Virus record (IMG/VR): IMGVR_UViG_3300031774_000068
Coordinates: 1-35,294 of that record
Length of the DNA stretch: 35,294 nt
Strand: one strand, 5' to 3'
Source: a virus
In this document: positions 309 to 25,902 of the stretch, piece after piece
Numbering within the stretch: the first letter of the stretch is position 1
Layout of the letters: the number at the start of each line of letters is the position of its first letter
Translations under genes and position numbers: made by a program
The notes under the pieces: model-generated
The model's input: only the letters and a program-made list of their open reading frames with translations
The model's database searches: none
Told to the model about the DNA's origin: nothing

Positions 309-533
309 ATGAAATTTTCACCTGAGCTGCATTTTCACGACTACAAGTCATTACAGCAAGTTGAGCACGATGGCGACACTTGGGTAATCCTTGGTAGAGG
401 CCGAACTAACGATCAAGGCCAAACTTACTGTCATCTAGCCAGCACTACTCGCGCTAGAAAACAAAAAAACGGTTTTAATCCTATCCAAGCCACTGGCTGG
501 TTAAACATCAAACTAAACGGAGTTGAGCAATGA
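309..533 (+). CDS. Small early protein of unknown function
   Basis: A 74-residue protein beginning MKFSPELHFHDYKSLQQ. The ATG at 309 was preferred to an upstream in-frame ATG at 195 because it follows ACGGAG at a good distance and the upstream extension overlaps the previous gene and the GAAA hairpin. The stop overlaps the start of the ArdC-like gene by four bases (ATGA), indicating one operon with translational coupling. No domain recognised; the sequence is polar and beta-rich. It probably belongs to the early host-takeover set. Confidence 0.75.
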   Translation: MKFSPELHFHDYKSLQQVEHDGDTWVILGRGRTNDQGQTYCHLASTTRARKQKNGFNPIQATGWLNIKLNGVEQ

Positions 534-1381
534 AAAACCAAAAAATTTATGAGCAAATCACTGAGCAGGTTATCAACGGCCTGCAAGGTGCAAAAAAGTG
601 GTCAAAGCCTTGGACATACGTCACAAGCGCACCACACAACGGTATCTCTGGCAGGGCATACAGTGGCATCAACTGGTTAATCCTCGCCCTAGCCCCATAT
701 GATAGCCCACAATGGCTTACCTTTAACGGCGTTAAGGAGTTAGGTGGCAGCGTTAAGGGCCAGAAGGCTACTCAGGTTATTTACTACAATGTAACCAAGG
801 TTAAAGACAAAGAAACTGGCGACAGTAAAACCATCCCATTCGCAAAGCCTCACAACCTTTTCAATGTAGAGCAGGTTGAAGGCCTCGATAAAACTAAGCT
901 TGTCGGTTATAAGCCAGAGACTATTCTTGACTTAGATTACAATGAATTTACTGCTCACAATTTGGCAGAGTCTTTGCAGGTTAAGCTATCTTATGGATGC
1001 AGTCAGGCGTGCTTTATTCCATCAGCTGATGAAGTAAAAATGCCTAATGCTGAGGATTTTGTAGATACGGCCCAGTTTCAGGCTACGCTAATCCATGAGC
1101 TTATCCATTGGACAGGCCACAAGTCACGCCTTAACAGACTAGGTGATAAGTCTAAAGAAGGTTATGCGTTTGAAGAGCTGGTCGCTGAGTTAGGTGCAGC
1201 AATGGCTGGCAGTATTTACGGCTTGCCGTATGAAGGCCTGCAACACGAAGAGTATATTGCATCTTGGTTAACGCGACTCGGCGATGATCCGAAGCATATC
1301 TACAAAGCGGCAAAGCTTGCTGGCAAGGCTGTTAACTATTTAATTGAAAATTCTGCGGTAGCCGCTGTAAAAGCGGCATAG
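530..1381 (+). CDS. ardC: ArdC-like antirestriction / ssDNA-binding metallopeptidase-fold protein
   Basis: A 283-residue protein with the two-part ArdC layout. The N-terminal about 130 residues (IYEQITEQVINGLQ, then KKWSKPW and SGRAYSGINWLIL) match the DUF1738 ssDNA-binding domain. The C-terminal half is a zincin-like domain with HELIHWTGH at about residues 189-197 and a downstream FEELVAELGAAMAG that can supply the third zinc ligand. ArdC proteins of plasmids and phages protect incoming DNA from restriction and bind single-stranded DNA. Lying in the early operon fits a role just after injection. Starts with ATGA overlap to the upstream gene, after ACGGAG. Confidence 0.88.
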   Translation: MKNQKIYEQITEQVINGLQGAKKWSKPWTYVTSAPHNGISGRAYSGINWLILALAPYDSPQWLTFNGVKELGGSVKGQKATQVIYYNVTKVKDKETGDSKTIPFAKPHNLFNVEQVEGLDKTKLVGYKPETILDLDYNEFTAHNLAESLQVKLSYGCSQACFIPSADEVKMPNAEDFVDTAQFQATLIHELIHWTGHKSRLNRLGDKSKEGYAFEELVAELGAAMAGSIYGLPYEGLQHEEYIASWLTRLGDDPKHIYKAAKLAGKAVNYLIENSAVAAVKAA

Positions 1382-1819: not shown

Positions 1820-2005
1820 ATGGTGCGGTTAGATGCGAATGATTACGAAGTAGACGATTCAGTCATTGAGTTGATCAACGCATTCTCCGCTGCACTATTT
1901 GACAAAGACCGACTGGCACTGGATGACGTATACTATTTAGCCTGTGATAAAGTAAGCAGCAAGTGCTCATGTTATGAGCCAGTATGCATATGTGAGAGAA
2001 GATGA
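1820..2005 (+). CDS. Small acidic Cys-rich protein of unknown function
   Basis: A 61-residue acidic protein starting after GAGAGAG. The C-terminus carries a cluster of cysteines (KCSCYEPVCICERR plus one earlier Cys) that could bind zinc. Its stop overlaps the start of the small terminase gene by four bases, so it is translated with the packaging genes. No family recognised. Confidence 0.6.
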   Translation: MVRLDANDYEVDDSVIELINAFSAALFDKDRLALDDVYYLACDKVSSKCSCYEPVCICERR

Positions 2006-2421
2006 CCAGACCAACAATATTTAACGATGAGTTAGCAACCACTATCTGCCATCGCCTTACTATGGGCGAATCTGCACGACAAATCTGTCGCAGTCACGAT
2101 ATGCCATCCCTATCTACCCTTATGAAGTGGCTTACAGAGTCAGATAAAATCGAGTTTTCGGAGCAGTACGCGAGGGCCAGAGACTTACAGGCTGATTACT
2201 ACGCCGATCAAGTGGTCGATTTAGCTGATGAGCTCATAGAAGGATCTGATAATAATGAGATAGCTAGGGCCAAGCTACGCATCGATAGCCGCAAGTGGAA
2301 GGCCTCTAGGATGCAACCTAAAAAGTGGGGTGATAAGTCAGCTGTAGACGTAACATCGTCTGACCAGTCATTTAAGCCTACTGTGATCAATCTAGTCGCT
2401 GCTGAAGTGCCTGATGAGTAA
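2002..2421 (+). CDS. terS: Terminase small subunit
   Basis: A 139-residue protein directly before the large terminase and overlapping it by eight bases. The N-terminal half contains an HTH-type pattern (TTICHRLTMGESARQICR, then MPSLSTLMKWL), followed by the helical ADYYADQVVDLADEL and the segment RAKLRIDSRKWKASRMQPKKWGDK. That order is typical of small terminase subunits that recognise the pac/cos site and form a ring feeding DNA to the large subunit. Length is normal for the family. Confidence 0.9.
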   Translation: MTRPTIFNDELATTICHRLTMGESARQICRSHDMPSLSTLMKWLTESDKIEFSEQYARARDLQADYYADQVVDLADELIEGSDNNEIARAKLRIDSRKWKASRMQPKKWGDKSAVDVTSSDQSFKPTVINLVAAEVPDE

Positions 2422-3694
2422 TGTCGCCACAATCAACCTACCGCCAAAGCTAGTTAAGCTATTCGATGGTGAGGCCCGATATCGATGTGCATGGGGCGGT
2501 CGAGGATCAGGTAAGACTGTTAGCTTTGCATTGATGACAGCTGTCAGAGGTTATATGTGGGGTATGGCTGGCCGTAAGGGGCAGATACTCTGTGGTCGTG
2601 AGCATTTGAACAGCCTAGAAGAATCTTCGTTAGAAGAGGTTAAATCGGCTATCAGGAGCTGTGACTTCTTGGTCGATTACTATGAGATAGGTGAGAAGTA
2701 CATCCGATCTAAGGATGGCAACATCAGCTACACGTTTACTGGTTTGCGCCGCAACCTAGATTCCGTTAAATCTAAAGCCAAGATACTTTTGTGTTGGGTT
2801 GATGAGGCTGAAGGTGTAAGTGAAACTGCATGGTCTAAACTGATTCCTACAGTGCGTGAAGAGAACTCAGAGATATGGGTGACTTGGAATCCAGAGAACA
2901 AGAACTCATCGACTCATCGCCGATTCAGGCAGAATACCCCAGAGGGGCTAAAGATAACTAACGTCAACTGGCGTGATAATCCGTTTTTCCCGAAAGTATT
3001 AGAGCTCGCTAGACAAGAGGATCTTGAGCTGCGGCCAGAGTCTTATGACCATATTTGGGAAGGTGACTTTTTAGTACACGTTGACGGTGCTTACTACATG
3101 ACAGAGATGCGTGATGCTAGGCAGGGTGGAAGGGTTAGTGGTGTCCCATATGACCCAGCATTGCCAGTAACGACTGCATGGGATTTAGGTGTGGGTGATT
3201 CTACATCGATCTGGTTTGCTCAGTTTTATGGCAAAGAGGTTAGGCTGATTGATTACTACGAAAGCAGCGGTGTTGGCCTCGATCACTATGTTCAGCTACT
3301 CAACAGTAAGGGTTACACCTACGGCAATCATATCCTACCGCACGATGTCAGGGTGAGAGAGCTAGGCACTGGCAAGTCACGCTTAGAGACTTTAGGCACG
3401 CTAGGTGTTAGGCCAATCACTATTGCGCCGCAGCTAATGGTTGACGATGGAATACAGGCGGCCCGATCAATGATAGCCAGCTGCTGGTTTGATGAGATTA
3501 AATGCTCCAGAGGTATAGATTGTCTGGGCCAGTATCACAGAGATTATGACGAAAAGAATCAGACGTTCAAGGGCAATCCTGTGCACGACTGGGCATCACA
3601 TGGCGCAGATGCATTTAGGTACTTAGCAACAGGTCACAAGCCAGATCGAAACTGGGGCGAACCAATAAGAAGAAACATCAGAGGTGTGGTATAA
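2414..3694 (+). CDS. terL: Terminase large subunit, PBSX type
   Basis: A 426-residue packaging ATPase/nuclease. The N-terminal ATPase domain has a P-loop WGGRGSGKT at residues 27-35 and a Walker B with catalytic acid (ILLCWVDEAEG, about residues 123-133). The C-terminal RNase H-like nuclease domain starts near AWDLGVGDS (about residue 255), with further acidic positions in HDVRVREL and HDWASHGADAFRYL. Family knowledge: it translocates DNA into the prohead through the portal and cuts the concatemer. The stop codon overlaps an extended -10 motif (3687-3698). Confidence 0.95.
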   Translation: MSNVATINLPPKLVKLFDGEARYRCAWGGRGSGKTVSFALMTAVRGYMWGMAGRKGQILCGREHLNSLEESSLEEVKSAIRSCDFLVDYYEIGEKYIRSKDGNISYTFTGLRRNLDSVKSKAKILLCWVDEAEGVSETAWSKLIPTVREENSEIWVTWNPENKNSSTHRRFRQNTPEGLKITNVNWRDNPFFPKVLELARQEDLELRPESYDHIWEGDFLVHVDGAYYMTEMRDARQGGRVSGVPYDPALPVTTAWDLGVGDSTSIWFAQFYGKEVRLIDYYESSGVGLDHYVQLLNSKGYTYGNHILPHDVRVRELGTGKSRLETLGTLGVRPITIAPQLMVDDGIQAARSMIASCWFDEIKCSRGIDCLGQYHRDYDEKNQTFKGNPVHDWASHGADAFRYLATGHKPDRNWGEPIRRNIRGVV

Positions 3695-3698
3695 TCGG
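3687..3698 (+). promoter_or_regulatory. Extended -10 motif TGGTATAATCGG (late promoter candidate 1)
   Basis: TG-G-TATAAT followed by CGG, with no recognisable -35. The same TGNTAWAATCGG pattern recurs at 8770, 16062 and 23809. It lies over the terL stop and just before the gene at 3716, with a start point expected about seven bases after the -10. Extended -10 promoters can work without a -35. Sequence match clear, activity inferred. Confidence 0.65.
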
Positions 3699-3715
3699 CG
3701 TTTTTTGGGGATGCT

Positions 3716-3898
3716 ATGAGCTTATACAAAAACATTGCAAAGAAGAAGGCCAGAATAAAGGCTGGATCTAAAGAAACTATGCGAAAAAAAGGAGCTAAGG
3801 GTGCGCCGACTGATAAGGCTTTCAAGCAGGCTGCAAAGACAGCGAAAAAACCTAAAGCTAAGAAAAAAGCAGCTAAACGGTCAGGAAAAAAATACTGA
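3716..3898 (+). CDS. Small Lys/Ala-rich basic protein
   Basis: A 60-residue, extremely basic protein: MSLYKNIAKKKARIKAGS at the N-terminus and a Lys/Ala-repeat tail resembling histone H1 C-termini. Its N-terminal half resembles small proteins I recall next to terminase genes in marine podovirus genomes; none has a known function. It follows the extended -10 motif with GGGG as ribosome-binding site. A DNA-condensing or nucleic-acid-binding role is plausible from charge alone. Stop and next start overlap. Confidence 0.75.
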   Translation: MSLYKNIAKKKARIKAGSKETMRKKGAKGAPTDKAFKQAAKTAKKPKAKKKAAKRSGKKY

Positions 3899-4188
3899 TG
3901 CCAAAGAAAAAAGACTCCAAACTGTCTAATGCTGGTGTATCAGGTTATAACAAACCAAAGCGCACTCCAAACCATCCTAAAAAGTCTCATGTTGTTGTTG
4001 CTAAAGAGGGCGATAAAACAAAGACAATTAGGTTTGGTGAGCAGGGAGCAAAGACAGCTGGCAAGCCCAAAAAAGTTGAGTCTGAAGCAATGAAGAAAAA
4101 GCGTGCCTCATTCAAGGCTCGTCATGGTAAGAATATATCTAAAGGTAAAATGTCTGCGGCTTACTGGGCCGACAAGGTGAAGTGGTAA
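3898..4188 (+). CDS. Conserved basic phage protein (DUF6321-like)
   Basis: A 96-residue, Lys-rich protein. It contains RTPNHPKKSHVVVAK, then KTIRFGEQGAKTAGKP, then FKARHGKNISKGKMSAAYW near the C-terminus. These blocks recur in a conserved phage family that I believe is catalogued as DUF6321; the number is from memory. Function unknown. It overlaps its neighbours by one base on each side, between the other basic protein and the polyvalent protein, so it is probably a virion or DNA-associated product. Confidence 0.75.
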   Translation: MPKKKDSKLSNAGVSGYNKPKRTPNHPKKSHVVVAKEGDKTKTIRFGEQGAKTAGKPKKVESEAMKKKRASFKARHGKNISKGKMSAAYWADKVKW

Positions 4189-7100
4189 TGGCATTAGGCG
4201 CAAGAGCACAGGGTATACTTGATCTCATACTCGACCCTAAGAAATATGACGATTCATTTGAGCTCAGAAATATACCAAAGGTTAAGCCAAGAGATGAGTA
4301 TGGCGTTCCTATTGTTGAGGGCCGACCCGATGATGCGCCTACAATCACTCTCAGCGATTTAGAAGGCTACCCATACCTATCAACAATGTCTGATAGAACG
4401 GCGGCAGGCGGCCAGCTGGTTGGTATAGGCGACAAGGATTTAGCATATCCGATTGACTTGACTGGCGGTCAGGATTTCATGCGCAACAATCCAAACTTAT
4501 GGGCATCTGGAACTAGCCCTGTCAACCAGATGATACAGGCTGGTCAAAATCTAAAAAAAGAATATGGTAGAGATCCTGTTCTAATCCCTTGGCGAATGTC
4601 GGCATCAGGCAGCGATTTCTCTGGTCAGATGACAGGCGGCACGATGATGTCTTATGCATCGGCCAATATGCCTGCTGCGGTCAAAAAGCAGTTAGATGCT
4701 GATATCAGGGCGCGTGTGCCAGATTTTGTCGGTGTCGATAATCCATTAGCACAAGAGCAATTCGCTAGACTGCCAGACGCTACTAGAAAGTTTATTCAGC
4801 AGCAGATAATGGATAAAGATTATCGTAGCCAAGGCGGTATATCTCTGCCACAGGCAAGATTGGCTATTGCTGACCCATCACAGTTAGATGCGCAAGTTAT
4901 GGGATTGCAAAATGTAGGCTTGCTAGATGTTGATGCTGGAAACTTGTCTGGTCAAGGCAATATCATCTATCCTGACGCTGTAGGCGGCGAGTTTATAGGG
5001 CGGCTTGATACTGATGCTACTCTGATAGATCTTGACCCTACAGCTCAATACAGGGCTACATCTGGCGGTATTTATGGTCGCCCACTTAGTGTAGGCGATG
5101 ATGGGCCGAGGACTGAGTTTGGCCAAATGAGGCGAGCAGCGGAGATTGCTCCGTATGGCGGCTTAATCGATGATAAGTTGCTGCGAAATCTTGAGTCGAA
5201 GGGAATAAAGGTTAGTGCCAATCCGTTTATGACTCTAGTCGGTGTTGGTTTAGCTGGCGGAGCTTTATTTGGCAGTGAAGAGGCAGATGCTGGTATTTTG
5301 TCAGGCACTTACAAAAATGTGTCGCAAAACATTAACCAACTTGATAAGGTTATCGACCGACTGAATAGTGGCCAGCCACTACGTTCAGGGGATCTATTAT
5401 ACGGTAGTGAGGGAGCAACATTCCGAACGCCACAATTTGAAACGGAAGCGAGAGTATTCGATGAGCTTAGAAACCAATCCCAAACCTACGGAGAGCCAGT
5501 CTTCGACAGGGCAACTATCGGAAGTAGAATTAATATTGCAGGAAGAGAACGAGTTAATGGAATTGCTCGGTTTTCCATGCCATCAGCCTATCAAACGGAG
5601 CTCGGAAGGCTAAATCTAAACAGTCCAGATATGATCGAGATTAGCCCAGACCAAGTGGGTGCTGATTTATTTTCTGAGCGTATCAATGCAGCGAAAAAAT
5701 CTAATCGGTTTGGCGCAGCTGTTGAGGCGTATGACCCAGACGCATACAAAGGTATGCGGTTATTCCTGAGCGAAGATGGCGGAGCTGGGTTTGCATTAAA
5801 GCCAGATGGTGATTTAGTTAGTGCGTTCAGCGATGGATCTACAAAGGGTGTAGCATCGCAGTTGTTGCTGTTAGGTATCGAGCAGGGTGCTAAAAAGTTA
5901 GATGCATTCGACACAATCTTGCCAGAACTATATTCAAAAGCTGGATTCAGAGAGACAAGTCGACTAAAATTCGACCCAGAACAAGCACCAGCAGATTTTG
6001 ATCCAGCTGTATTTAGTAGGTTTAATGAGGGTCAGCCTGACGTATCGTTTATGGCCCTAGATCGCGGCAGAGCAAGGCCAGTAGAGCCAATCTATGCTGA
6101 CGACTATGCTGATGCAATAGCTCGTCAACAGGCAGGTGTTAGCAATCTAGATGATCTCAGATTAATTCCTGAAGGTGATCTATCTATAATGCCTGCGCCT
6201 CAGCGATTCTTTGATCAAGATAATAAAGCGTTTAAACCATTCCTATCTGACATTCCATTTGAGTCTGGCGGTCGATACTTATCTATGGGTGAAAACCGTA
6301 GAGACTTAACAGGCGCATTTCCAAAGACTGCATCGATATCTATTGATCCTACTGGCAAGCCAACATTTGCTGTGTCTGGCGAGTCGCGCAAGGGAGTACC
6401 GCCAACTGAAGGCCGCACAATCAAGACAAACCTATTTAAGAAGAGTGCAGGCTGGAACTGGGAGCAAGTGCCAGAGGGCTTTCCAAAAGACCCTGACAAA
6501 GGCTTTCCGATTGTCTCTGTTGAAGACAGCACTGGTCACTATTACTCACTATCCACTGATTACCCAGAGGGCGTGAGCCTACAAAGAAACCCATCGACAA
6601 CTGAGCCTAGATTACGACCAGAGACTAAAGGTTTCATTGAGTACGGTAATGTGGTTGGTACGATCCGAACTCGTAAAAGCAAGGCTCATCCAAAAGGCAA
6701 AATCCACAACGTATACGACAAGATAACTGTACGCAATGTTGCGCCAGCTGTTATTGCTGGATTTGCTGCTGCGGGCCAGTCAGAGGATGCTGATGCGTCT
6801 TATGTTGGTATTGTTTCTAAGCTTGGGTTTGGCCGACAAGATTTGCTAAATACTGCAAAGCGTATGGAAGAGCAGGGTGATAGCCCAGAAGAAATATGGT
6901 CAATGACTGGTTGGGAAAAGAATCAGGCTGATGGTGAGTGGCGCACAGAGCTACCTAACACTAACACCAAGATCAATTTCGATAAGCTTGTAGATGATGG
7001 TGTGATGAATGATCTTCCCACACTTCTAGGTGCTGGCGATAAAAAGAAAATAAAAGTAGATAGCTTTGCAGAATACAAGCTAAAAGATTTAGTTGATGAC

Positions 7101-8750
7101 CCAGAATTGCTTGATCAGTATCAACCAAGAGAGCTGTTTAGGATCGCTGACGATAGATTTGCTGCTGACTACTATGACCAGCCTGCTCCGCCTTTAAGCT
7201 CGGAACAAGCCAAGCTGATAGAAGAGTATGGCGAGCCAAGATACAAACCAGATTTTTTTGATACTGATTCTAATCAAAGAATTTATGGATCTAGGCAGAC
7301 AGGCCCGCTTGGCGATATACGAGTTGTATTTGACCCTAACCTAGATGCTGGTGAAGGCTACTGGAATAGCGACTTTAACACTATTGGTATAGGCAATAAC
7401 TCTACTCCAGAGGATGTAAGAGGGACTTTACTGCACGAATTACAGCACGCAATCCAATCTAGAGAAGGTTTTGGTGCTGGCATGAACGCAGATTATATCG
7501 AGCAATTGCAGACTGCTGCTGCGGAGTTTGATATTAGAGGCGGCCAAGCCGAAATAGACAGGCTAACTAAACTGGCTGACGAATACACTCAGGCTTATGC
7601 ATCAGGCGATATTAAAAACGTAACATTAGAGCAGGCAGGTGCTGCTGTTGATGCACAAGAAATGATTGGTAGACGTGCACTTGATGAGAGAATGCGCGAG
7701 ATAGGATCAAAAATAGACCCAGAAGCTGATGGCTATGGATCTCCGTTTGCTATCTATAAAAATACAGCTGGCGAGGTTGAAGCTAGAAATGTAGAGCAGA
7801 GAGATCGAATAAGACGATTAAATTCTGGCCAAGCCTCACTCGGTGAGTTATTCCCTAATAGGCCGCCAGTACCATATGTTGCCAAATTTGATCCCGATGA
7901 GACTCCAGCATTCGCATCTGAGCGTTATGTAGGGGGTAAAGACCAGTCACGACAACTATTCACGCGAGGCGATTTATTAGAAGAAACTATTGGGACAGAC
8001 TTAGATCCTAACGACTTTTTGTCTGGCACACAGTTAAGTAAGCGTTATGTAGATAATATACGCAACGCGCTGAAATCGACTAATAATATGACTACAAGCC
8101 AAGCTATTATAAAGGCAGATGATATTATAGATAAAGCTCCGCCAATATTGAGCACTAAATCAGCATCGAATCTATCAAATTATGACCCATTCAAAGATCA
8201 ATCTGAAATGCCGTTCGATATTTATAATCGCCCAATGTCAAAAATGGAAGCGAATTTAACGGTGGATGTGTTTAGGTCTGTTGCTAGAGGGTTTGAAGAC
8301 GCTATAAAAATGATCGGTGGCGGTGCTGTCAGTACAGTAGAGCCAGAATCTGGCGCGTTTAAGGCCGTCATGGATGTGCCAAGTGTGTTCGGCGAATATA
8401 ATGAAACCACAAAGGAATTAACAACTAAAGCAGGAACTCAATTAGGCAAGGTTCTTAGGCCTGCACTAGATTATGTTTTGAATGCGCGTTTTGTGGGCAG
8501 CCTTAACCCATTTAAAGAAAATCAGTCTCTAAAGGAAAAGTTGATAGAGGATATGACGAGAATATCTGATCAATACAATTCTATGCCTGACTTTGTAAAG
8601 GAAGAAGTTGCGCCAAGAATAGGTTATGGAACATTGGCTGCACTGGGAGCTTTGACATTTTATTTACCATCTCCAAAGCCTAAGCCAGACGTAAAAATAC
8701 CACTGAAGCCAGACGACCCTGTACCACAAGGCTTATTAAGCGCAAATTAA
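4188..8750 (+). CDS. Giant polyvalent protein (GNAT-like plus LPD23-like HELQH domain)
   Basis: A 1520-residue protein, the largest in the genome. The ATG at 4188 (AGGTGA upstream) was preferred to GTG at 4182. Residues about 1-360 are a conserved-looking block of unknown fold. About 480-600 resemble the N-acetyltransferase-like domain of phage polyvalent proteins (MRLFLSEDGG, then LDAFDTILPELYSKAGF). About 885-1210 resemble polyvalent domain LPD23: MEEQGDSPEEIWSMTGW followed by the zinc-protease-like HELQHAIQSREGFGAG (HELQH at 1083-1087). A hydrophobic stretch lies near residue 1490. Such proteins are thought to enter the host with the DNA and counter defences; that role here is inference. 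Confidence 0.85.
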   Translation: MALGARAQGILDLILDPKKYDDSFELRNIPKVKPRDEYGVPIVEGRPDDAPTITLSDLEGYPYLSTMSDRTAAGGQLVGIGDKDLAYPIDLTGGQDFMRNNPNLWASGTSPVNQMIQAGQNLKKEYGRDPVLIPWRMSASGSDFSGQMTGGTMMSYASANMPAAVKKQLDADIRARVPDFVGVDNPLAQEQFARLPDATRKFIQQQIMDKDYRSQGGISLPQARLAIADPSQLDAQVMGLQNVGLLDVDAGNLSGQGNIIYPDAVGGEFIGRLDTDATLIDLDPTAQYRATSGGIYGRPLSVGDDGPRTEFGQMRRAAEIAPYGGLIDDKLLRNLESKGIKVSANPFMTLVGVGLAGGALFGSEEADAGILSGTYKNVSQNINQLDKVIDRLNSGQPLRSGDLLYGSEGATFRTPQFETEARVFDELRNQSQTYGEPVFDRATIGSRINIAGRERVNGIARFSMPSAYQTELGRLNLNSPDMIEISPDQVGADLFSERINAAKKSNRFGAAVEAYDPDAYKGMRLFLSEDGGAGFALKPDGDLVSAFSDGSTKGVASQLLLLGIEQGAKKLDAFDTILPELYSKAGFRETSRLKFDPEQAPADFDPAVFSRFNEGQPDVSFMALDRGRARPVEPIYADDYADAIARQQAGVSNLDDLRLIPEGDLSIMPAPQRFFDQDNKAFKPFLSDIPFESGGRYLSMGENRRDLTGAFPKTASISIDPTGKPTFAVSGESRKGVPPTEGRTIKTNLFKKSAGWNWEQVPEGFPKDPDKGFPIVSVEDSTGHYYSLSTDYPEGVSLQRNPSTTEPRLRPETKGFIEYGNVVGTIRTRKSKAHPKGKIHNVYDKITVRNVAPAVIAGFAAAGQSEDADASYVGIVSKLGFGRQDLLNTAKRMEEQGDSPEEIWSMTGWEKNQADGEWRTELPNTNTKINFDKLVDDGVMNDLPTLLGAGDKKKIKVDSFAEYKLKDLVDDPELLDQYQPRELFRIADDRFAADYYDQPAPPLSSEQAKLIEEYGEPRYKPDFFDTDSNQRIYGSRQTGPLGDIRVVFDPNLDAGEGYWNSDFNTIGIGNNSTPEDVRGTLLHELQHAIQSREGFGAGMNADYIEQLQTAAAEFDIRGGQAEIDRLTKLADEYTQAYASGDIKNVTLEQAGAAVDAQEMIGRRALDERMREIGSKIDPEADGYGSPFAIYKNTAGEVEARNVEQRDRIRRLNSGQASLGELFPNRPPVPYVAKFDPDETPAFASERYVGGKDQSRQLFTRGDLLEETIGTDLDPNDFLSGTQLSKRYVDNIRNALKSTNNMTTSQAIIKADDIIDKAPPILSTKSASNLSNYDPFKDQSEMPFDIYNRPMSKMEANLTVDVFRSVARGFEDAIKMIGGGAVSTVEPESGAFKAVMDVPSVFGEYNETTKELTTKAGTQLGKVLRPALDYVLNARFVGSLNPFKENQSLKEKLIEDMTRISDQYNSMPDFVKEEVAPRIGYGTLAALGALTFYLPSPKPKPDVKIPLKPDDPVPQGLLSAN

Positions 8751-8769
8751 AGCTATTTTTGAAAAAAAA

Positions 8770-8781
8770 TGGTAAAATCGG
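8770..8781 (+). promoter_or_regulatory. Extended -10 motif TGGTAAAATCGG (late promoter candidate 2)
   Basis: Second copy of TGNTAWAATCGG, in the 50-base gap between the polyvalent gene and the adaptor gene. It is followed by a T-run, as in the copy at 3687. A start near 8785 would give a short leader containing GTGAGAG before the ATG at 8801. No -35 is visible. Confidence 0.6.
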
Positions 8782-8800
8782 TTTTTAAAGTGAGAGTAAA

Positions 8801-9442
8801 ATGGCGATATCTACATTAGCAGAATTAAAGACGACAATAGCTGACTTTTTGAACAGGTCAGATTTAACTTCTGTCGTGCCTACCTTTATTGATTTAGCTG
8901 AATCACAAATCAATCGAGATGTGCGTCATTGGCGTATGGAAAACAGGGCCACAACGACTTTAACTTCTCAATACTTGACTCGGCCATCTGATTGGGTGCA
9001 AACCCAAAGAATCAGAATAAACGGCGGGAAAGATAATTTAGAGCTGCTAAGTAGTGCAGCAATGGATGAGCGCAGAGCATACGCAGATAATATAACTGGC
9101 GTGCCTGATGGATTTCGACATATTGAAGATCAATTCGAGTTTTTCCCTTCTCCAAATGCTGACTTACCATGTGAGTTAGTATATTTGCAAAAAATACCTG
9201 CTTTGACAGATTCTAATACTACTAACTGGCTGCTAACGTATGCGCCAGATATTTATTTGTACGGATCTTTGCTGCATACCGCACCATATCTATCTGATGA
9301 TCCGAGAATCGCTGTCTGGGCGCAGTTGTACTCTGCGGCAGTGCAAAGGCTCAATGAAGAGTCAGAGCAGGCAGATGAGAGCGTGTCAGGTTTGAGAATG
9401 AGGCGCAGAGGTTTAAATACTGGATCGACAAGGTACAACTAA
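8801..9442 (+). CDS. Head-tail adaptor protein (SU10 type)
   Basis: A 213-residue protein with the pattern of podovirus adaptor proteins: N-terminal helices (LAELKTTIADFLNRSDL, then FIDLAESQINRDVRHWRME), a beta-rich middle (RPSDWVQTQRIRI, then GFRHIEDQFEFFP) and a C-terminal helical part (YLYGSLLHTAPYLSDDPR). Family knowledge: adaptors form a ring under the portal and connect it to the tail. The ribosome-binding site is GAGAG before ATG. It opens the tail module, after the extended -10 motif. Assigned from pattern. Confidence 0.8.
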   Translation: MAISTLAELKTTIADFLNRSDLTSVVPTFIDLAESQINRDVRHWRMENRATTTLTSQYLTRPSDWVQTQRIRINGGKDNLELLSSAAMDERRAYADNITGVPDGFRHIEDQFEFFPSPNADLPCELVYLQKIPALTDSNTTNWLLTYAPDIYLYGSLLHTAPYLSDDPRIAVWAQLYSAAVQRLNEESEQADESVSGLRMRRRGLNTGSTRYN

Positions 9443-9822
9443 TGGCCCTTTCAAATTATCTGGACAGAAAGGTATTGGAGCACGTTTTGGGAGTCCAAGC
9501 GTATACACCTGCCAGTAACCTATATCTTGGTTTGTTTGTTGGTAATCCAGAGTCTGGTGGTACAGAGGTGTCTCAATCATCTTATTATCGGCGCGGCATA
9601 TCTTTCAATGTAGTTACAGATAACTTAGCGACTAACGCCGCAGATATTGATTTCATAATTAATGAGTCTTTTGGGTTAATCGATTATGTTGGAGTGTTTG
9701 ACGCATTGACTGGTGGAAATTTATTAATAAGTGCTCAGACAGGCTCACCATTAAATGGTAGTGACACTCCACAAGTTTTTTTAAGAGCTGGCGCACTATC
9801 AATCAGGCTAAATAACGGATGA
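9442..9822 (+). CDS. Tail-associated protein, Gp80-like family
   Basis: A 126-residue beta-rich protein. MALSNYLDRKVLEHVLG, then NLYLGLFVGNPESGGTEVS, then YVGVFDALTGGNLLISAQ follow the pattern of a small phage family usually annotated as tail fibre protein (Gp80-like). The start overlaps the adaptor stop by one base. Probably a virion tail component; the exact position is unknown. Confidence 0.75.
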   Translation: MALSNYLDRKVLEHVLGVQAYTPASNLYLGLFVGNPESGGTEVSQSSYYRRGISFNVVTDNLATNAADIDFIINESFGLIDYVGVFDALTGGNLLISAQTGSPLNGSDTPQVFLRAGALSIRLNNG

Positions 9823-10046
9823 GGTATAGCCAAGGCCCATACAATTATAGTATTTACCAAGGTGCGTTAGCGTTTAGGGATTTTATTGCATCATCTACTA
9901 CGGTATCAACGGCTAGTGTAAATATTGTTGTGTTATGGACAGATGAGGTAGTTGCGCCATCTACATGGGTAGATCAACAGGTTAGTGCAGCAACTTGGGT
10001 AACACAGACAACTCCAACTTCAACATGGAAAACAATTAGACAATAG
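9819..10046 (+). CDS. Small tail-module protein of unknown function
   Basis: A 75-residue protein starting with an ATGA overlap with the upstream gene. It is rich in Thr, Ser and Val with a repeated tryptophan pattern in its C-terminal half (PSTWVDQQVSAATWVTQ, then TSTW), spaced about ten residues apart. Such Trp-Val repeats suggest beta-strands packing into a trimer or a strand-exchange segment. No family recognised; position implies a tail or fibre-attachment role. Confidence 0.65.
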   Translation: MRYSQGPYNYSIYQGALAFRDFIASSTTVSTASVNIVVLWTDEVVAPSTWVDQQVSAATWVTQTTPTSTWKTIRQ

Positions 10047-10054
10047 GTGAAACA

Positions 10055-10894
10055 ATGGCGAACACAACCAACTATTCTTTTAATCTGCCAACAGTAGGTG
10101 CGAACTTAGATTCGTGGGGCGGCTTATTAAATAATAACTGGACATCAGTCGATAGTTTACTAGGTGGCGGAACTGCCATAACTGGCATCGATATTAATGG
10201 TGGCACAATTGACGGCACTGTCATTGGCGGAACAACTACAGCAGCCATCACAGGAACAACTGTAACAGCCACTGAATTTGTCGGCCCACTTACAGGTAAT
10301 GTGACAGGAAATGTTACAGGAGATGTTACAGGAGCTCTAACTGGCAATGCATCTACTGCAACTCAACTAGCTACACCTAGAGCTATTGCTGTTACATCTG
10401 GCCCAATCACAACATCAAGTTTAAATTTTGATGGCTCTGGTGACGTAGCCTTAACTTCACTACTTAACTATGACTCTGTATGGCCAATAAATTCAATATA
10501 CATATCTACTAACGCAGCAAACCCTTCCACATATTTTCCGTTTACAACTTGGGAAGCGTTCGGTGAGGGTAAGGTTATTATAGGTGCGGGTACACACACT
10601 GACACCAGAAGTGAATCGAAAACATTTGTTGGTGGTGACACTGGTGGTGCATATCAGCATTTGTTAGTTGAGTCTGAAATACCAACACATAACCATGAGC
10701 CAGACTCACAAAGAAACCATCTTTTAAGGACAAATGTTAATACATCTGATGGCGGATTTGATAGCACCAGTGGAGAACCAGATTTAAGTGCACAAGGTAA
10801 CGCTGAGATACAAGATTTCGGTGGCGATACTGCGCACAATAACACACAACCATATATAGCAGTTTATATGTGGAAACGAATAGCAAATCCATAG
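10055..10894 (+). CDS. Tail fibre protein with collar-like C-terminal domain
   Basis: A 279-residue fibre protein. The N-terminal about 45 residues (YSFNLPTVGANLDSWGGLL, then VDSLLGGGTAI) match the fibre-attachment segment also present in the next gene. Residues 81-100 are tetrapeptide repeats (GNVT GNVT GDVT GALT GNAS), a usual fibre shaft element. The C-terminal part (PINSIYISTNAANPSTYFP through EIPTHNHEPDSQ to HNNTQPYIAVYMWKR) has the tail-collar/baseplate Gp10-like domain with its conserved THNH and NNTQPYI motifs. Likely a receptor-binding fibre. Ribosome-binding site AGGTGA. Confidence 0.88.
   Translation: MANTTNYSFNLPTVGANLDSWGGLLNNNWTSVDSLLGGGTAITGIDINGGTIDGTVIGGTTTAAITGTTVTATEFVGPLTGNVTGNVTGDVTGALTGNASTATQLATPRAIAVTSGPITTSSLNFDGSGDVALTSLLNYDSVWPINSIYISTNAANPSTYFPFTTWEAFGEGKVIIGAGTHTDTRSESKTFVGGDTGGAYQHLLVESEIPTHNHEPDSQRNHLLRTNVNTSDGGFDSTSGEPDLSAQGNAEIQDFGGDTAHNNTQPYIAVYMWKRIANP
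10295..10354 (+). repeat. In-frame 12-bp tandem repeats in tail fibre gene
   Basis: Five consecutive 12-base units, each encoding G-(N/D/A)-(V/L/A)-(T/S), lie in frame with the fibre gene. The first three differ at one to three positions, so the array expanded fairly recently and could vary in number. Repeats of this kind set the length of fibre shafts. Confidence 0.8.
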
Positions 10895-16844: not shown

Positions 16845-17960
16845 ATGGGCGGATCTAGGAGCAAGTTTCAAGATACAAGTAGTGTTTACGCAGATTCACC
16901 ATTAGAAGGCAAGTCTGTTGGCTCTTACACACCTACATTTGCTGGCAATAAGTCTGGTCAATATCAAGGCACTGGAATGTTTGGTAACAATGCCTATGAG
17001 CAAGCGGCAAGTGGCATAACAGCTGGTATGGATGCTACTGCTGCGGCAGGTATGTATAGCCCAGAAAAAGTGCAAGCAGGCCAAATGGCTGGTGCTGATT
17101 TATCTGCATACACAAACCCATATGAACAGCAGGTAGTGCAGCAAACGCAAGACGATATGATGCGTGCGCAACAGATTCAACAGAATTTATCAGATTACCA
17201 AATGGGTGCAGCAGGCGGATTTGGCGGATCTCGTCATGGTATAGCTGATGCAGAATCCAATAGGGCTTTCTATGATCGTTTGGGTGCGACTACTGGTCAG
17301 CTGCGTCAAGCAGGCTTTCAGAATGCTCAACAGCAAGCTCAGGCTGATCTTAACCGACAATACCAAGCAGACACATTCAATGTTGGTGCGGGCGAGAGAA
17401 CAGCGCAGAGAGCCATACAAGCTGGCAATCAGTTAGGATCAATGGGTAATTTAGGATTCACTCAGGCACAAGAGATCAACCGAGATGTACGCAACCAAGG
17501 TAATGTTGATCAGTTAATGGCCCAGCAGCTAATCGATGCGGCTAAAGGTCAATTTGCAGGCTACACAGGTGCACCAGCATCTACTATTGGCTACTTATCT
17601 AATGCGCTCGGCGCGACAACTGTGCCAGTTAATTCACAGCAAACCAAAGATGTTGGCTTATTTGATTATCTATCAATGGGCGCACAAGTTGGTGGCGCAA
17701 TGGCAATGTCTGATATGCGCTTAAAAACGGAAATTAATAAAATTGGTGAGCTCGGTCAGGGTATTGGCTTGTACACTTGGAAGTGGAATGACAAGGCGTA
17801 TCAGATTGAAGATGAGATGCGTAAAGAGGGTATTACCATTGGTAACGAAGTTGGTGTTATGGCTCAAGAGGTTGAAGAGATACTTCCAGAGTGCGTTATC
17901 GAAACTAAGTCTGGCTATAAGGCTGTTGACTATCAAAAACTACTTGAGGTTTTACACTAA
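16845..17960 (+). CDS. Virion protein with C-terminal S74 self-cleaving chaperone domain
   Basis: A 371-residue protein. Residues 1-285 are Ala/Gln/Gly-rich and helical (AYTNPYEQQVVQQTQDDMM, then AQQQAQADLNRQYQ), unlike a beta-helical spike. The last about 83 residues form an intramolecular chaperone of the endosialidase/peptidase S74 type: SDMRLKTEINKIG from Ser289, GIGLYTWKWND, GVMAQEVEEILPE and GYKAVDYQKLL. Family knowledge: this domain folds trimers and then cleaves itself off just before the conserved Ser. The body lacks fibre hallmarks, so its target structure is unclear. Confidence 0.85.
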   Translation: MGGSRSKFQDTSSVYADSPLEGKSVGSYTPTFAGNKSGQYQGTGMFGNNAYEQAASGITAGMDATAAAGMYSPEKVQAGQMAGADLSAYTNPYEQQVVQQTQDDMMRAQQIQQNLSDYQMGAAGGFGGSRHGIADAESNRAFYDRLGATTGQLRQAGFQNAQQQAQADLNRQYQADTFNVGAGERTAQRAIQAGNQLGSMGNLGFTQAQEINRDVRNQGNVDQLMAQQLIDAAKGQFAGYTGAPASTIGYLSNALGATTVPVNSQQTKDVGLFDYLSMGAQVGGAMAMSDMRLKTEINKIGELGQGIGLYTWKWNDKAYQIEDEMRKEGITIGNEVGVMAQEVEEILPECVIETKSGYKAVDYQKLLEVLH

Positions 17961-21566: not shown

Positions 21567-23669
21567 ATGCACGATTTAGAGCCGTTAAGTAATGATGATA
21601 TAGAGAACATTGCAAGCACTGCCGTAGAAGATTGCATGAGCTTTGTCGAGTCTGAAATATCATTCGACAGAATAAAGGCTCAGAGATATTACGATGGGCA
21701 AGTTGATATCGGTCAAGAAGAAGGCCTTTCATCTGTTGTTGCAACAAAAGTAAGAGACACTATCCGTTCGATAATGCCTAACTTAATGCGTGTTTTTTTG
21801 CAGTCGGATAAGATTGTTGAGTATGTACCTAGAAACTCACAAGAAGCACGATTTGCAGAGCAAGCAAGCAAATATGTTAATTATAAGTTTGATGAAAACA
21901 ATGGATACAAAGTCTTATACGATGTATTTCAAGATGCATTATTAAAAAAGTGCGGCATTGCAAAAGTTTATTGGGATTCATCTACTGAAGTTAACACATA
22001 TAATTTTAGCAATCTTAATGAGATGGAGTTTACTGCATTAGTAAATGATGATGATATCGAGATCGTCAAGCACGTTACAGAAATTGAAGTGACTGTTGAT
22101 CAAAACGGTGTGGAAGTAGAAAGCCCTGTTCACGACTTAACTTTGATGAGAACAACGGACACAGGTAAGTTAGTGGTAGAAAGTGTGCCACCAGAAGATT
22201 TTTATGTCGATGCAAATGCCACATCATTAGAAGATGCATATTGTGTTGCCCATGTTACTGATATGCGAGTTGGCGATTTAGTAGAAATGGGTTACGACTA
22301 CGATGAGGTTGTAGATTTAGGTGACGCATCAGACGTTAACTTAATGGCTACTGAAGAGTCATTTGAACGTAACGGTTATACCGATATCTTCGATGAAGGT
22401 CAAAACCTAGATCCATCAATGCGCAAAGTTATGGTTACTGAGTGCTACATGAAGATGGATATTGAAGGCACTGGTGTCGCACAACAATACAAACTGACTC
22501 TGGCTGGCGACAACTACAAACTTTTAGGTTACGAGCCTTGGACTGATTTGCCATTCGCGGTGTTTGAAACTGATCCTGTACCGCACACATTTTACGGTAA
22601 GTCGATATCTGATTTGATTTGTGAAGATCAAGATGCAGCTACTGCATTATTGCGTGGCGTATTAAATAACGTGGCATTGGTTAACACACCAAGAACAGAA
22701 GTGTTAGATGGTCAGGTTAACATCGATGACGTTTTAAATAATGAAATTGGTGGTATTGTTCGTGTATCTCAACCGAATGCAATACAGCCACTAGCAGTGC
22801 CATTTGTAGCTGGACAAACACTATCTGCTATCCAGTATTATGATCAAGCTATCGAAGAAAAGACTGGAATTAACTCTACCAGCACAGGCATGAATCCAGA
22901 TGCCCTGCAAGCACAAACCGCAACCGCTGTTATGGCGGCTATGCAAGGATCAGCAAACCACATCGAGATTATGGCTAGAAACTTAGCCGAGGGCGGCGTG
23001 GCTCAGATGTTCAAGCTTATGCTGGCTCTTTATATTGAGAACTGTGATTCTGAGGATATGATGCGATTAGCTGGCGGCGACTACGAGCCAGTAGATCCGC
23101 GCTCATGGGATAAACGCATGGGTGTTAGCGTCAAGGTTGGTTTAGGCACAGGAATGCATGACCAGCGTCAGGCGGCGTTACAGCAAGCCTTGCAGGTACA
23201 AATGCAGATATTCCAATCATTTGGGCCAGAAAACGGCTTAGTTGGCATGACTGAGGTGCGTCACTCATTGGCAGATATCTTGGCCATGAATGGTATTAAG
23301 AACGCCGAGCGTTACTTCAAGCCAATGAATCCAGAGATCGAACAACAGATTATGATGGCAGAGCAGCAGAGAGCACAGTCAGAGGGTAAACAGCTGACAC
23401 AGCCTGAAGCATTTGTGCAGGCCGAGCAGATTAAATCTGAGTCTAAGGCTCAGACAGATATGGCTAAAATGCAGATTGATGCACAGAAAGCAATTGCTGC
23501 TGATGACCGAGAGCGCGATCAGATGGATCAAGATTTACTGGTTGATGCTGCTGAGTTACTGGCCCGATATGGTGCGCAGGTGGATGTTGCACAGATCAAG
23601 GCTGATCAGGCCAAACCAAGATACCCTGACTCAATGCCTGTTGACGCTGTCACTGGTGGTCGATTCTGA
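21567..23669 (+). CDS. Portal protein, P22-like
   Basis: A 700-residue portal. The N-terminal part (FVESEISFDRIKAQRYYDG, then VRDTIRSIMPNLMRVFLQS) and the middle (VESVPPEDFYVDANATSLED) follow the large P22-type podovirus portals. The C-terminal about 110 residues are highly helical and Gln-rich (KMQIDAQKAIAADDRERDQ), fitting the extended barrel of this family. It forms the dodecameric ring through which terminase loads DNA. Immediately followed by the small protein, scaffold and capsid genes, which fixes the head module. Confidence 0.9.
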   Translation: MHDLEPLSNDDIENIASTAVEDCMSFVESEISFDRIKAQRYYDGQVDIGQEEGLSSVVATKVRDTIRSIMPNLMRVFLQSDKIVEYVPRNSQEARFAEQASKYVNYKFDENNGYKVLYDVFQDALLKKCGIAKVYWDSSTEVNTYNFSNLNEMEFTALVNDDDIEIVKHVTEIEVTVDQNGVEVESPVHDLTLMRTTDTGKLVVESVPPEDFYVDANATSLEDAYCVAHVTDMRVGDLVEMGYDYDEVVDLGDASDVNLMATEESFERNGYTDIFDEGQNLDPSMRKVMVTECYMKMDIEGTGVAQQYKLTLAGDNYKLLGYEPWTDLPFAVFETDPVPHTFYGKSISDLICEDQDAATALLRGVLNNVALVNTPRTEVLDGQVNIDDVLNNEIGGIVRVSQPNAIQPLAVPFVAGQTLSAIQYYDQAIEEKTGINSTSTGMNPDALQAQTATAVMAAMQGSANHIEIMARNLAEGGVAQMFKLMLALYIENCDSEDMMRLAGGDYEPVDPRSWDKRMGVSVKVGLGTGMHDQRQAALQQALQVQMQIFQSFGPENGLVGMTEVRHSLADILAMNGIKNAERYFKPMNPEIEQQIMMAEQQRAQSEGKQLTQPEAFVQAEQIKSESKAQTDMAKMQIDAQKAIAADDRERDQMDQDLLVDAAELLARYGAQVDVAQIKADQAKPRYPDSMPVDAVTGGRF

Positions 23670-23899
23670 ATATAAAAGAGCGTGCTTATAACGCTAGAGC
23701 ACTATTAGATAACCCTTTATACAAAGAGGTTATGCAAAAGATTAGAGAAGATCAAATAAAGGTCTTCACTAACGAGCAGTCTCCTATAGAGACTATTAAA
23801 GTCGCGCATGATATAATCGGCGCGTTAAACAAGATCGATAATCACTTCCAAACTGTATTTACAGAAGAGGCGATGTTCGACAAACGTAATAAGGATTAG
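23666..23899 (+). CDS. Small protein between portal and scaffold, non-ATG start
   Basis: A 77-residue ORF read from CTG at 23666 (ATT at 23663 is an alternative); it overlaps the portal stop. The frame is open from a TGA at 23642 to TAG at 23897. It encodes LNIKERAYNARALLDNPLYK and a helical remainder (VAHDIIGALNKIDNHFQTVF). No ATG exists before 23732, and starting there would lose the well-formed N-terminal helices. Small proteins of this kind often lie between portal and scaffold genes; function unknown. It contains a copy of the TGNTAWAATCGG motif. Confidence 0.65.
   Translation: MNIKERAYNARALLDNPLYKEVMQKIREDQIKVFTNEQSPIETIKVAHDIIGALNKIDNHFQTVFTEEAMFDKRNKD
23809..23820 (+). promoter_or_regulatory. 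Extended -10 motif TGATATAATCGG (late promoter candidate 4)
   Basis: Fourth copy of TGNTAWAATCGG, inside the small gene between portal and scaffold and about 84 bases before the scaffold start. It could give extra transcription of scaffold and capsid, which are needed in the largest amounts. Being inside a coding region weakens the case for this copy alone. Confidence 0.5.
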
Positions 23900-23903
23900 T
23901 ATC

Positions 23904-24938
23904 GTGGAAACGCCTAATACCGAAGCAAGCAGTACATTAGAATTTGATGGCACAGTGGATGGGGCTGTCAGTGCTCTACTACAGGAATCTGAAGTAAACT
24001 CAGAAGAATCTATTGAGGAAGGCGCGGAAGCTACCCTTACCGAAGAAGAGTCTGAAGAGCAAGTTGAAGAGGAAAGTGAAGAAGAGCTTGAGCCTGATGA
24101 GGATGAGAACGTAGAGTCCGAATTAGATGAGGATCAGGATGAATCCGAGGATGACGACACAGAATCTGAAGCTGATTCACCCAATGATCAACAAAAATTC
24201 ACCGTCAAAGTTGGCGGCAAGAATGAAGTTGTAACCCTTGATGAGTTAAAGCAAAGTTTTTCTGGCCAAAAGTACATCCAAAAGGGTATGCAAGAAACAG
24301 CAGAAACTAAGAAAGAAGCCGAAGCTGTTTACTCTGCCCTGCTACAAGAGCGACAAGCAATTGCGCAACTTTATGAGCAAGCGCGTACTGGTAATGTACC
24401 GACTGCGCCTAAAGAGCCATCGAGAGAGTTGTTTGAGACAGATCCAATTGGTTACATGAATGCAAAAATGCAGTACGAAGATCAGGTAGCTGAGTACAGC
24501 AGAGAAATGCAGAAGTTGGAAGTAGTATCTCAACAGCAGTCACAGGCTCAAATGGCGGCACAGCAAGCTTACATGAGACAAGAGTTGGAATCGTTGAAGA
24601 AGGCGATACCAGAAATGCAAGATGAAAAACAAATGCCTGTGTTGAGGGAAAAGCTTGTAAAAGCTGGAACTGATATTTACGGCTATACCAACGAAGAGAT
24701 ATCTGAGGTAATGGATCATCGAGCTATTCGAGTTTTAATGGATGCGGCAAAGTACCAAGAGATAGTTAATGGTACTGAAAAAGCTGCGGAGAGAGCAAAG
24801 CCTAAAAGTCGAAAACGTACTACGAAAGCAGGTTCTAAAAAGCAAGGCGCAAAGAGTGTTGCACTTAAAAAGCAAAAACAAACTTTAGCCAAAACTGGTA
24901 GCGTTGAAGACGCTATTGCTTTATTAATGAATGAATAA
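23904..24938 (+). CDS. Scaffolding protein
   Basis: A 344-residue protein with GTG start after AAGGA. Residues about 30-95 are extremely acidic (runs of Glu/Asp such as EESEEELEPDEDENVE), followed by a coiled-coil/helical centre (AYMRQELESLKKAIPEMQ) and a very basic C-terminus (KPKSRKRTTKAGSKKQGAK) ending in a short helix. This acidic-helical-basic layout and the place between portal and capsid genes are those of podovirus scaffolds, whose basic C-terminus binds coat protein. No protease motif is seen, so scaffold exit is probably P22-like. Confidence 0.88.
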   Translation: METPNTEASSTLEFDGTVDGAVSALLQESEVNSEESIEEGAEATLTEEESEEQVEEESEEELEPDEDENVESELDEDQDESEDDDTESEADSPNDQQKFTVKVGGKNEVVTLDELKQSFSGQKYIQKGMQETAETKKEAEAVYSALLQERQAIAQLYEQARTGNVPTAPKEPSRELFETDPIGYMNAKMQYEDQVAEYSREMQKLEVVSQQQSQAQMAAQQAYMRQELESLKKAIPEMQDEKQMPVLREKLVKAGTDIYGYTNEEISEVMDHRAIRVLMDAAKYQEIVNGTEKAAERAKPKSRKRTTKAGSKKQGAKSVALKKQKQTLAKTGSVEDAIALLMNE

Positions 24939-24951
24939 AAGGTGAATTATC

Positions 24952-25902
24952 ATGGCACAACCAACTAATACTTTCGACACTTATGATGCAAAAGGCATCC
25001 GCGAAGATTTAAGCGACATCATCTATAGCATTACTCCAGATGACACTCCTTTCTACTCTGCGTGTAAAAAAACCAAAGCTACTCAGCGTAAGCACGAGTG
25101 GCAAACTGACTCATTGCGTAACTCTGCTGTTAACGCCCACATTGAGGGTGGCGACACTAGCGCACAAGAGCCTACTGCAACTGTACGTTTAGATAACTTA
25201 ACGCAAATCTTTAAGAATGCGACTATTGTTTCTGACACTCTTCAGTCTGTTAACGCTGCTGGCCGTAAAGAAGAAATGGCTTACCAGATGGTTAAGACTG
25301 CGCGTGAGCAAAAGCTTGATATTGAAAAAGCTTTATTTGCTAACCAAGCAAAAGTAGACGGCAACAGCACAACTGCTCGTCAACTTGCTGGTTTAGGCGC
25401 GTGGATCAAAACTAACGTTGAAAAAGGTGCTGGTGGTGCTAATCCAACTGGTGACGGTTCTGATGCTCGTACTGATGGTACAGACACTGCATTCGATCAA
25501 ACTAAGTTTGACTCTGTTATGCAGTCTATCTGGACTAACGGTGGTGAGCCTGATCGTGTTTATTTGTCTCCATTCCAAATGAACAAAGCGTTATCCTTCA
25601 CAGGTAACAATAACCAGCGTTCTGCTGTACAAGCAGGTGACGAGAAAGTTGTTAAGTCATTAGCTGTTTACGTTACTCCTTGGGGTACTGTTGAGTTTGT
25701 ACCAAGCCGCGAAAACCGATCTGACGATGTTTACATCCTTCAGAACGATATGTTTGCGACTGCAATCTTACGACCAACAAAAAGCACTGAGCTTGCTAAG
25801 ACTGGCGATAATTCACATCGTCAAGTTGTTACTGAGCTTACGCTTTGCGTTAAGAACGAAGCCTCATCTGGCTTAGTAGCAGATAACACTACTTCAGATT
25901 AG
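24952..25902 (+). CDS. Major capsid protein, SU10 / DUF5309 type
   Basis: A 316-residue capsid subunit. The N-terminus (TFDTYDAKGIREDLSDIIYS, then ITPDDTPFYSACKKTKATQ, then HEWQTDSLRNSAVNAHIEGG) follows the SU10-type (DUF5309) capsid family of HK97 fold; the C-terminal part (VYVTPWGTVEFVPSRENR) fits its A-domain. Codon choice differs visibly from the neighbours (more CGT Arg and GCT Ala), as expected for a very highly expressed gene. Ribosome-binding site AAGGTGA. A strong terminator follows. Confidence 0.93.
   Translation: MAQPTNTFDTYDAKGIREDLSDIIYSITPDDTPFYSACKKTKATQRKHEWQTDSLRNSAVNAHIEGGDTSAQEPTATVRLDNLTQIFKNATIVSDTLQSVNAAGRKEEMAYQMVKTAREQKLDIEKALFANQAKVDGNSTTARQLAGLGAWIKTNVEKGAGGANPTGDGSDARTDGTDTAFDQTKFDSVMQSIWTNGGEPDRVYLSPFQMNKALSFTGNNNQRSAVQAGDEKVVKSLAVYVTPWGTVEFVPSRENRSDDVYILQNDMFATAILRPTKSTELAKTGDNSHRQVVTELTLCVKNEASSGLVADNTTSD

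Follow-up and report, generated by a model that had tools for sequence, protein, structure and literature searches.

A phage polyvalent protein with constant ends, exchanged middle modules, and signal-peptide-like junctions at the module borders

The window, i.e., the whole 35,294-nucleotide stretch of viral DNA analyzed here (IMG/VR record IMGVR_UViG_3300031774_000068), carries between its terminase and adaptor genes an open reading frame (ORF) for a polyvalent protein whose two ends are constant among relatives, whose middle is exchanged, and whose module borders coincide with conserved junctions resembling internal signal-peptidase sites (Table 1). The question addressed is by what route the domains of a polyvalent protein are turned into separately working effectors once it has been ejected. 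The reading that we prefer, to which we give an even chance, is that of a polyprotein that is packaged in the virion and comes apart into its modules at these junctions.

Table 1. Features of the polyvalent protein gene and of its neighbors. Positions are those of the window and residues those of the polyvalent protein.
Feature	Residues	Position	Strand	Basis or remark
Terminase large subunit (PF04466)		2414..3694	+	Left border of the gene slot
96-aa ORF directly 5' of the polyvalent ORF		3898..4188	+	phrog_7595
Polyvalent protein ORF, 1520 aa		4188..8750	+	Open frame; homologues in other phages
N module	1-362	4188..5273	+	Constant front end of the family; homologues, model, fold search
Junction 1	341-368	5208..5291	+	Lysine, hydrophobic FMTLVGVGLAGGALFG, then SEEADA|G; predicted cut A368|G369
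X1, helical N-terminal extension	371-455	5298..5552	+	Occurs only with this GNAT
GNAT acetyltransferase-fold domain	479-627	5622..6068	+	PHROGs, homologues, model, fold search
D3 module, all-beta (predicted)	666-852	6183..6743	+	Solo ORFs, profile matches, model
Junction 2	847-870	6726..6797	+	Hydrophobic NVAPAVIAGFAAAG, then QSEDADA|S; predicted cut A870|S871, start of LPD23
LPD23 (PF18838)	886-929	6843..6974	+	Pfam, 38.6 bits (cut-off 27)
Zincin-like metallopeptidase domain	1041-1205	7308..7802	+	PHROGs, alignment, fold search
HELQH zinc/catalytic motif	1083-1087	7434..7448	+	Alignment
GEVEAR, candidate third zinc ligand (glutamate)	1195-1200	7770..7787	+	Alignment
C2 tail, conserved C-terminal end	1419-1497	8442..8678	+	Hydrophobic stretch GYGTLAALGALTFYLP near residue 1480
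SU10-type adaptor (PF24175)		8801..9442	+	Right border of the gene slot

The frame is read from ATG 4188, with GTG 4182 as an alternative start, and remains open to 8750. The small and large terminase genes (PHROGs phrog_1482 and phrog_3717) lie just upstream, at 2002-3694, and the 96-aa ORF that follows them has a weak PHROGs match to a "minor head protein and DNA pilot" family. On the 3' side, the SU10-type adaptor is followed by head and tail genes, and the major capsid protein is also of SU10 type. This order, with the polyvalent ORF between the large terminase (terL) and adaptor genes, was found to be kept in the loci of about 20 environmental relatives, whose terL proteins are mostly 62-85% identical. 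When the protein was compared by segment with phage genomes (tblastn), each block had relatives, although in different phages: N in C72C1, D3 in Roseobacter phage CRP-13, GNAT in DC33, Microbacterium phage Caron, and many Streptomyces phages, and LPD23 with the peptidase in AF, ctsTn925, and F116. The ORF is thus far beyond chance, since every block has phage homologues and about 20 relatives keep the gene slot. Packaging of the protein is plausible because its neighbors are head genes.

Other genes of the window were noted. An ArdC anti-restriction protein (ArdC-N and MPTase-PolyVal) is encoded at 530-1381 (+), upstream of the terminase genes, so that the same genome encodes a second zincin. 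The protein encoded at 16845-17960 (+) ends with a Peptidase_S74 chaperone domain of the self-cleaving tail-fiber type. The portal, scaffold, and major capsid genes are found behind the tail genes (21567-25902), whereas in phage C72C1 they lie between the terminase and the adaptor, which is a block relocation.

The original prediction had described a 1520-residue polyvalent ORF beside the terminase genes, with an N-acetyltransferase-like domain at about 480-600 and two blocks (1-360 and about 610-770) that might be new domains. The ORF and its polyvalent architecture were confirmed, with the GNAT fold, LPD23, a HExxH domain, N, and D3 in one chain. The two blocks do correspond to two families outside Pfam, but their borders had to be corrected to 1-362 and 666-852. 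Structure prediction by segment bore out the acetyltransferase-like region: the model of residues 371-640, built from 42 sequences, had a pLDDT of 93.9, and the best 50 PDB matches in the fold search were all GNATs, over residues 479-627 (top match 1y9k, Z 9.9, rmsd 2.4, 130 residues aligned; RimI 5isv, Z 8.8). A GNAT fold is thus supported by the model for this core, with which the X1 extension belongs. PHROGs matched residues 520-594 to a family of unknown function, and the GNAT profile gave no matches among PDB sequences other than designed TIM barrels, which were spurious. In the GNAT alignment (A7), the tyrosine of LPxLYxxxGF is invariant; the acetyl-CoA loop, STKGVA, keeps the G and A of (Q/R)xxGx(G/A). 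Judging from these residues, acetyltransferase activity is plausible, but it may be altered, because the pyrophosphate loop lacks the usual Q/R. RimI-like GNATs are known to occur in polyvalent proteins, one family often being found beside ART (PMC5512222), and such a GNAT-ART pairing is seen in DC33.

The N module heads most members of the family, with 29-75% identity, and also occurs on its own in relatives as ORFs of 464-491 aa, with the adaptor gene next. No Pfam family was found for it. A fold search with the model of N from a relative (L174) returned YTH domains in all of the best 12 PDB rows (Z 6.3-7.5, rmsd 3.5-4.6), all with Z under 8 and with only 119-147 residues aligned out of a model range of about 280, a large part being skipped. 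Pfam YTH matched none of 17 N members, nor the window, and the hhalign comparison of the N profile with YTHDF1 gave an E-value of 0.68, inside the shuffled range; the optimum of this non-significant alignment pairs LWAS...PV...SG.DF.G with IWCS...PV...SG.F.G. A YTH/EVE-like (PUA-like) origin of N is put forward as a possible reading of the model. In the open-licence literature, no precedent was found for YTH domains in virions. A profile search of genome contigs with the N alignment gave no relative that would point to a host or a prophage.

D3 has no Pfam family that we could find and is all-beta according to its model. It can make up an ORF by itself (306-325 aa) or, elsewhere, stand at the front, in the middle, or at the end of proteins of up to 2191 aa. 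In the loci examined (L145, L126, L118, and CRP-13), D3 lies behind the portal gene, the solo ORFs directly so. In eight loci (L107 and L109-L115), D3 is circularly permuted, with its second half (profile positions 83-204) placed first and its first half (2-80) following after no more than about five residues; five of these loci were tested, and their halves are 45-54% identical to the window. The break falls in a variable loop (e.g., in L109, ORF 4882-10041, residues 1373-1570). The eight loci form two groups that are about 41-51% identical and come from several metagenomes, and an assembly artefact is thus unlikely. The permutation implies that the termini are adjacent in a compact fold. Fold searches with D3 as part of a larger model gave weak rows alone (3buz, an ADP-ribosyltransferase component, Z 2.1), and the sole match among PDB sequences, 2pma (E 0.004), covered a short hairpin and was not trusted as a relative.

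Toward the C-terminus, LPD23 is the only domain of the polyvalent ORF with a Pfam match above cut-off. An LPD23-like protease domain containing HELQH had been proposed; the motif was found where predicted, at 1083-1087, and both domains are present, but the idea that LPD23 is itself the HELQH domain was rejected, as LPD23 (886-929) precedes the latter (about 1041-1205). The same succession of LPD23 and a HExxH peptidase domain is seen in relatives, and the H, E, H, and GE.EAR columns are invariant across their peptidase alignment. Over the HELQH region, Pfam gave sub-threshold matches to DUF6782 (25.5 versus 27) and Peptidase_M78 (17 versus 22), MPTase-PolyVal (PF18818) not being among the matches to the polyvalent ORF, and a PHROGs metalloprotease family matched residues 1044-1090. 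With the model of this region from L174, the best structural match was PprI/IrrE (8sln, Z 5.5, rmsd 5.0, 91 residues aligned), with lethal factor at about Z 3. The PprI/IrrE match of the model is in line with the zincin assignment made previously (PMC5512222). The hydrophobic C-terminal stretch of the original prediction was also recovered, in the C2 tail. The junctions, the swapped middle between constant ends, the stand-alone forms of N and D3, and the circular permutation of D3 go beyond that prediction.

Comparison with relatives showed where the chain is exchanged. The window and L159, whose terL proteins are 85% identical, align over residues 3-368 (75%) and 857-1517 (45%) and carry different cargo in between, the middle of L159 being ART-like. 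The segment without a counterpart begins precisely at the cut predicted for junction 1 and ends within junction 2. In L174, exactly X1 and GNAT are missing, and D3 stands directly after junction 1. The exchanges among relatives, of GNAT, ART, methyltransferase, or no cargo at all, thus fall at the module borders, and stand-alone N ends there too. Three further loci were observed. In a close relative, L161 (ORF 3417-7484), ART-PolyVal and methyltransferase-like domains replace GNAT and D3. In L179 (ORF 3702-6425), two junctions stand back to back with no cargo between them. In L010 (ORF 5596-10542), with a terL only 36% identical, such junctions occur three times, and the GNAT shares 62% identity with that of the window.

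The junctions consist of a hydrophobic, charge-free stretch followed by [DE][DE][AS][DE]A|[SGAN]. Signal peptidase I needs a hydrophobic core and then small residues at positions -1 and -3, but no acids at -2, -4, or -5; the junctions are internal and carry extra conserved acids at these three positions. No other ORF of the window (at least 120 codons) has the motif after a hydrophobic stretch, both cases lying in the polyvalent ORF. The motif was matched 130 times in a non-redundant set of 482 large ORFs, 41 times after a hydrophobic stretch; in the reversed sequences, 5 of 44 matches stood after one. When the flank of LPD23 was inspected without any motif filter, all 18 distinct lineage members had Ala at -1, one of the set A/S/T/V at -3, and serine at +1, with a single exception that has alanine there; positions -3 and -1 thus follow the signal peptidase I rule. 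In this lineage, a junction always stands in front of LPD23-MPTase, and no such site was seen in other LPD23 proteins among the 80 listed; outside the lineage, a hydrophobic stretch precedes LPD23 in some proteins but is not followed by an acidic A-x-A site. Stand-alone N proteins have the same hydrophobic stretch but run on for only a few residues beyond it, and the acidic A-x-A motif is absent. Shared descent contributes to the conservation of the junctions, since they occur mostly in one phage lineage, with L010 as the exception. The AF2 pLDDT at the junctions is 25-45, and no ordered helix is supported.

In the preferred reading of a packaged and separated polyprotein, the N module (D3 in other phages) would be a carrier belonging to the head and presumably present in the capsid, a role suggested by the conserved gene slot and by the position of the stand-alone versions, next to the adaptor gene or the portal gene. 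GNAT, then D3, then the LPD23-zincin peptidase would be effector modules inserted between the constant ends. A carrier with exchangeable effectors fits the constant ends, the fixed slot, and the swapped middle, and the junctions fit separators. They would be processing sites at which the chain is split into 1-368, 369-870, and 871-1520 during or after ejection; GNAT is predicted to acetylate host or defense proteins, and the effectors may counter host defenses. In the likeliest course, the hydrophobic stretch would enter the host inner membrane, where it would be cut by signal peptidase I of the host or by a protease of the phage. We consider processing of the junctions by some protease to be slightly favored, whereas host signal peptidase specifically as the cutter is rather doubtful. 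The fullest version, in which internal signal-peptide mimics are cut by host signal peptidase on entry into the inner membrane, thus activating the effectors, and in which the carrier is a head protein with a YTH-like, modified-base-reader fold, seems improbable to us. No precedent for signal peptidase acting with phage ejection proteins was found in the open-licence literature, and the text of PMC5512222 does not mention signal peptide, linker, or transmembrane.

Three other explanations of the junctions were weighed. The chain may work as one piece, as is reported for N4 virion RNA polymerase, its junctions being uncut segments that insert into membranes or thread the protein through the portal and the inner membrane. 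This agrees with the hydrophobic, charge-free stretch at each border, with its presence in some LPD23 proteins from outside the lineage that have no acidic A-x-A site, with the hydrophobic part retained by stand-alone N proteins, and with the unprocessed transfer of N4 virion RNA polymerase and ArdC (PMC5512222), but it explains neither the retention of -1 Ala and of a small -3 residue nor the lack of the motif when nothing follows N; we regard it as rather doubtful. Cutting may otherwise be performed in cis by the resident LPD23-zincin peptidase, as has been suggested for DdrB of phage P1. Iyer et al. raised the idea, on limited evidence, that polyvalent proteins are processed by their own zincins (PMC5512222), and the invariable junction ahead of LPD23-MPTase would suit it. 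However, the junctions are kept in relatives without any HExxH (L012, L015, L018, L162, L164, L165, L167, L171, and L010), and they must thus be more than substrates for a peptidase of their own chain. Their upkeep does not depend on a protease acting in cis, although one acting in trans is possible, and autoprocessing as the sole reason for the junctions is weakened; we hold this explanation to be unlikely.

Finally, the junctions may be neutral linkers or fusion scars of an ordinary polyvalent protein, kept only by recent shared descent. Their restriction mostly to one lineage and their modeled disorder would be expected in that case, but positions -3 and -1 hold only residues compatible with signal peptidase while the rest of the stretch varies, the junctions of L179 persist without cargo, and those of L010 recur three times despite its distant terL. 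Moreover, no DNA-level repeat was found between junctions 1 and 2 that would point to simple recombination copies. Neutral linkers are very unlikely in our estimation.

For the preferred reading of separation at the junctions, the family supplies exact candidate cut sites, A368|G369 and A870|S871, together with constant carrier modules, and the cargo-less, peptidase-less, and stand-alone forms serve as natural controls. Two undescribed head-associated domains are defined, one of them circularly permuted in nature, and the rules of swapping illustrate how putative anti-host cargo is traded among phages.

Proteins of this general kind are known, while the junctions, N, D3, and permuted D3 are undescribed as far as we found in the open-licence literature. 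As in the polyvalent proteins of Iyer et al. (2017, PMC5512222), unrelated domains, including an LPD, a zincin, and a GNAT, are joined in one chain beside terminase and head genes, but N and D3 of the window lie outside Pfam, the signal-peptide-like junctions are repeated, and D3 is permuted in relatives. D3 is shared, at 27-34% identity and behind the portal gene, with gp55 of Roseobacter phage CRP-13 and with solo D3 ORFs (e.g., in L145), which lack N, GNAT, and LPD23 and occupy a slot different from that of the window. CDS0023 of phage C72C1 (L004; 468 aa) contains an N module, 27% identical over about 200 aa, and that genome's counterpart of the 96-aa ORF is 66% identical, but CDS0023 stands alone before the portal gene, without junction or cargo. 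Caron gp4, a head protein in which a VG15 minor capsid protein is fused to a GNAT 42% identical to ours, has a different carrier domain and neither D3 nor peptidase. The 3125-aa protein of Limnohabitans phage DC33 (LPD22, ART-PolyVal) likewise contains, within a polyvalent protein, a GNAT that is 41% identical, but with other partner domains. The DC33 record (L003, PQ492659.1), 39 kb long and encoding this 3125-aa protein, has a taxonomy line that assigns it to Inoviridae and is probably wrong. Phage P1 DdrB and the N4 virion RNA polymerase are likewise large proteins that are packaged and contain a zincin domain (PMC5512222), and the zincin theme is what likens them to the protein described here.
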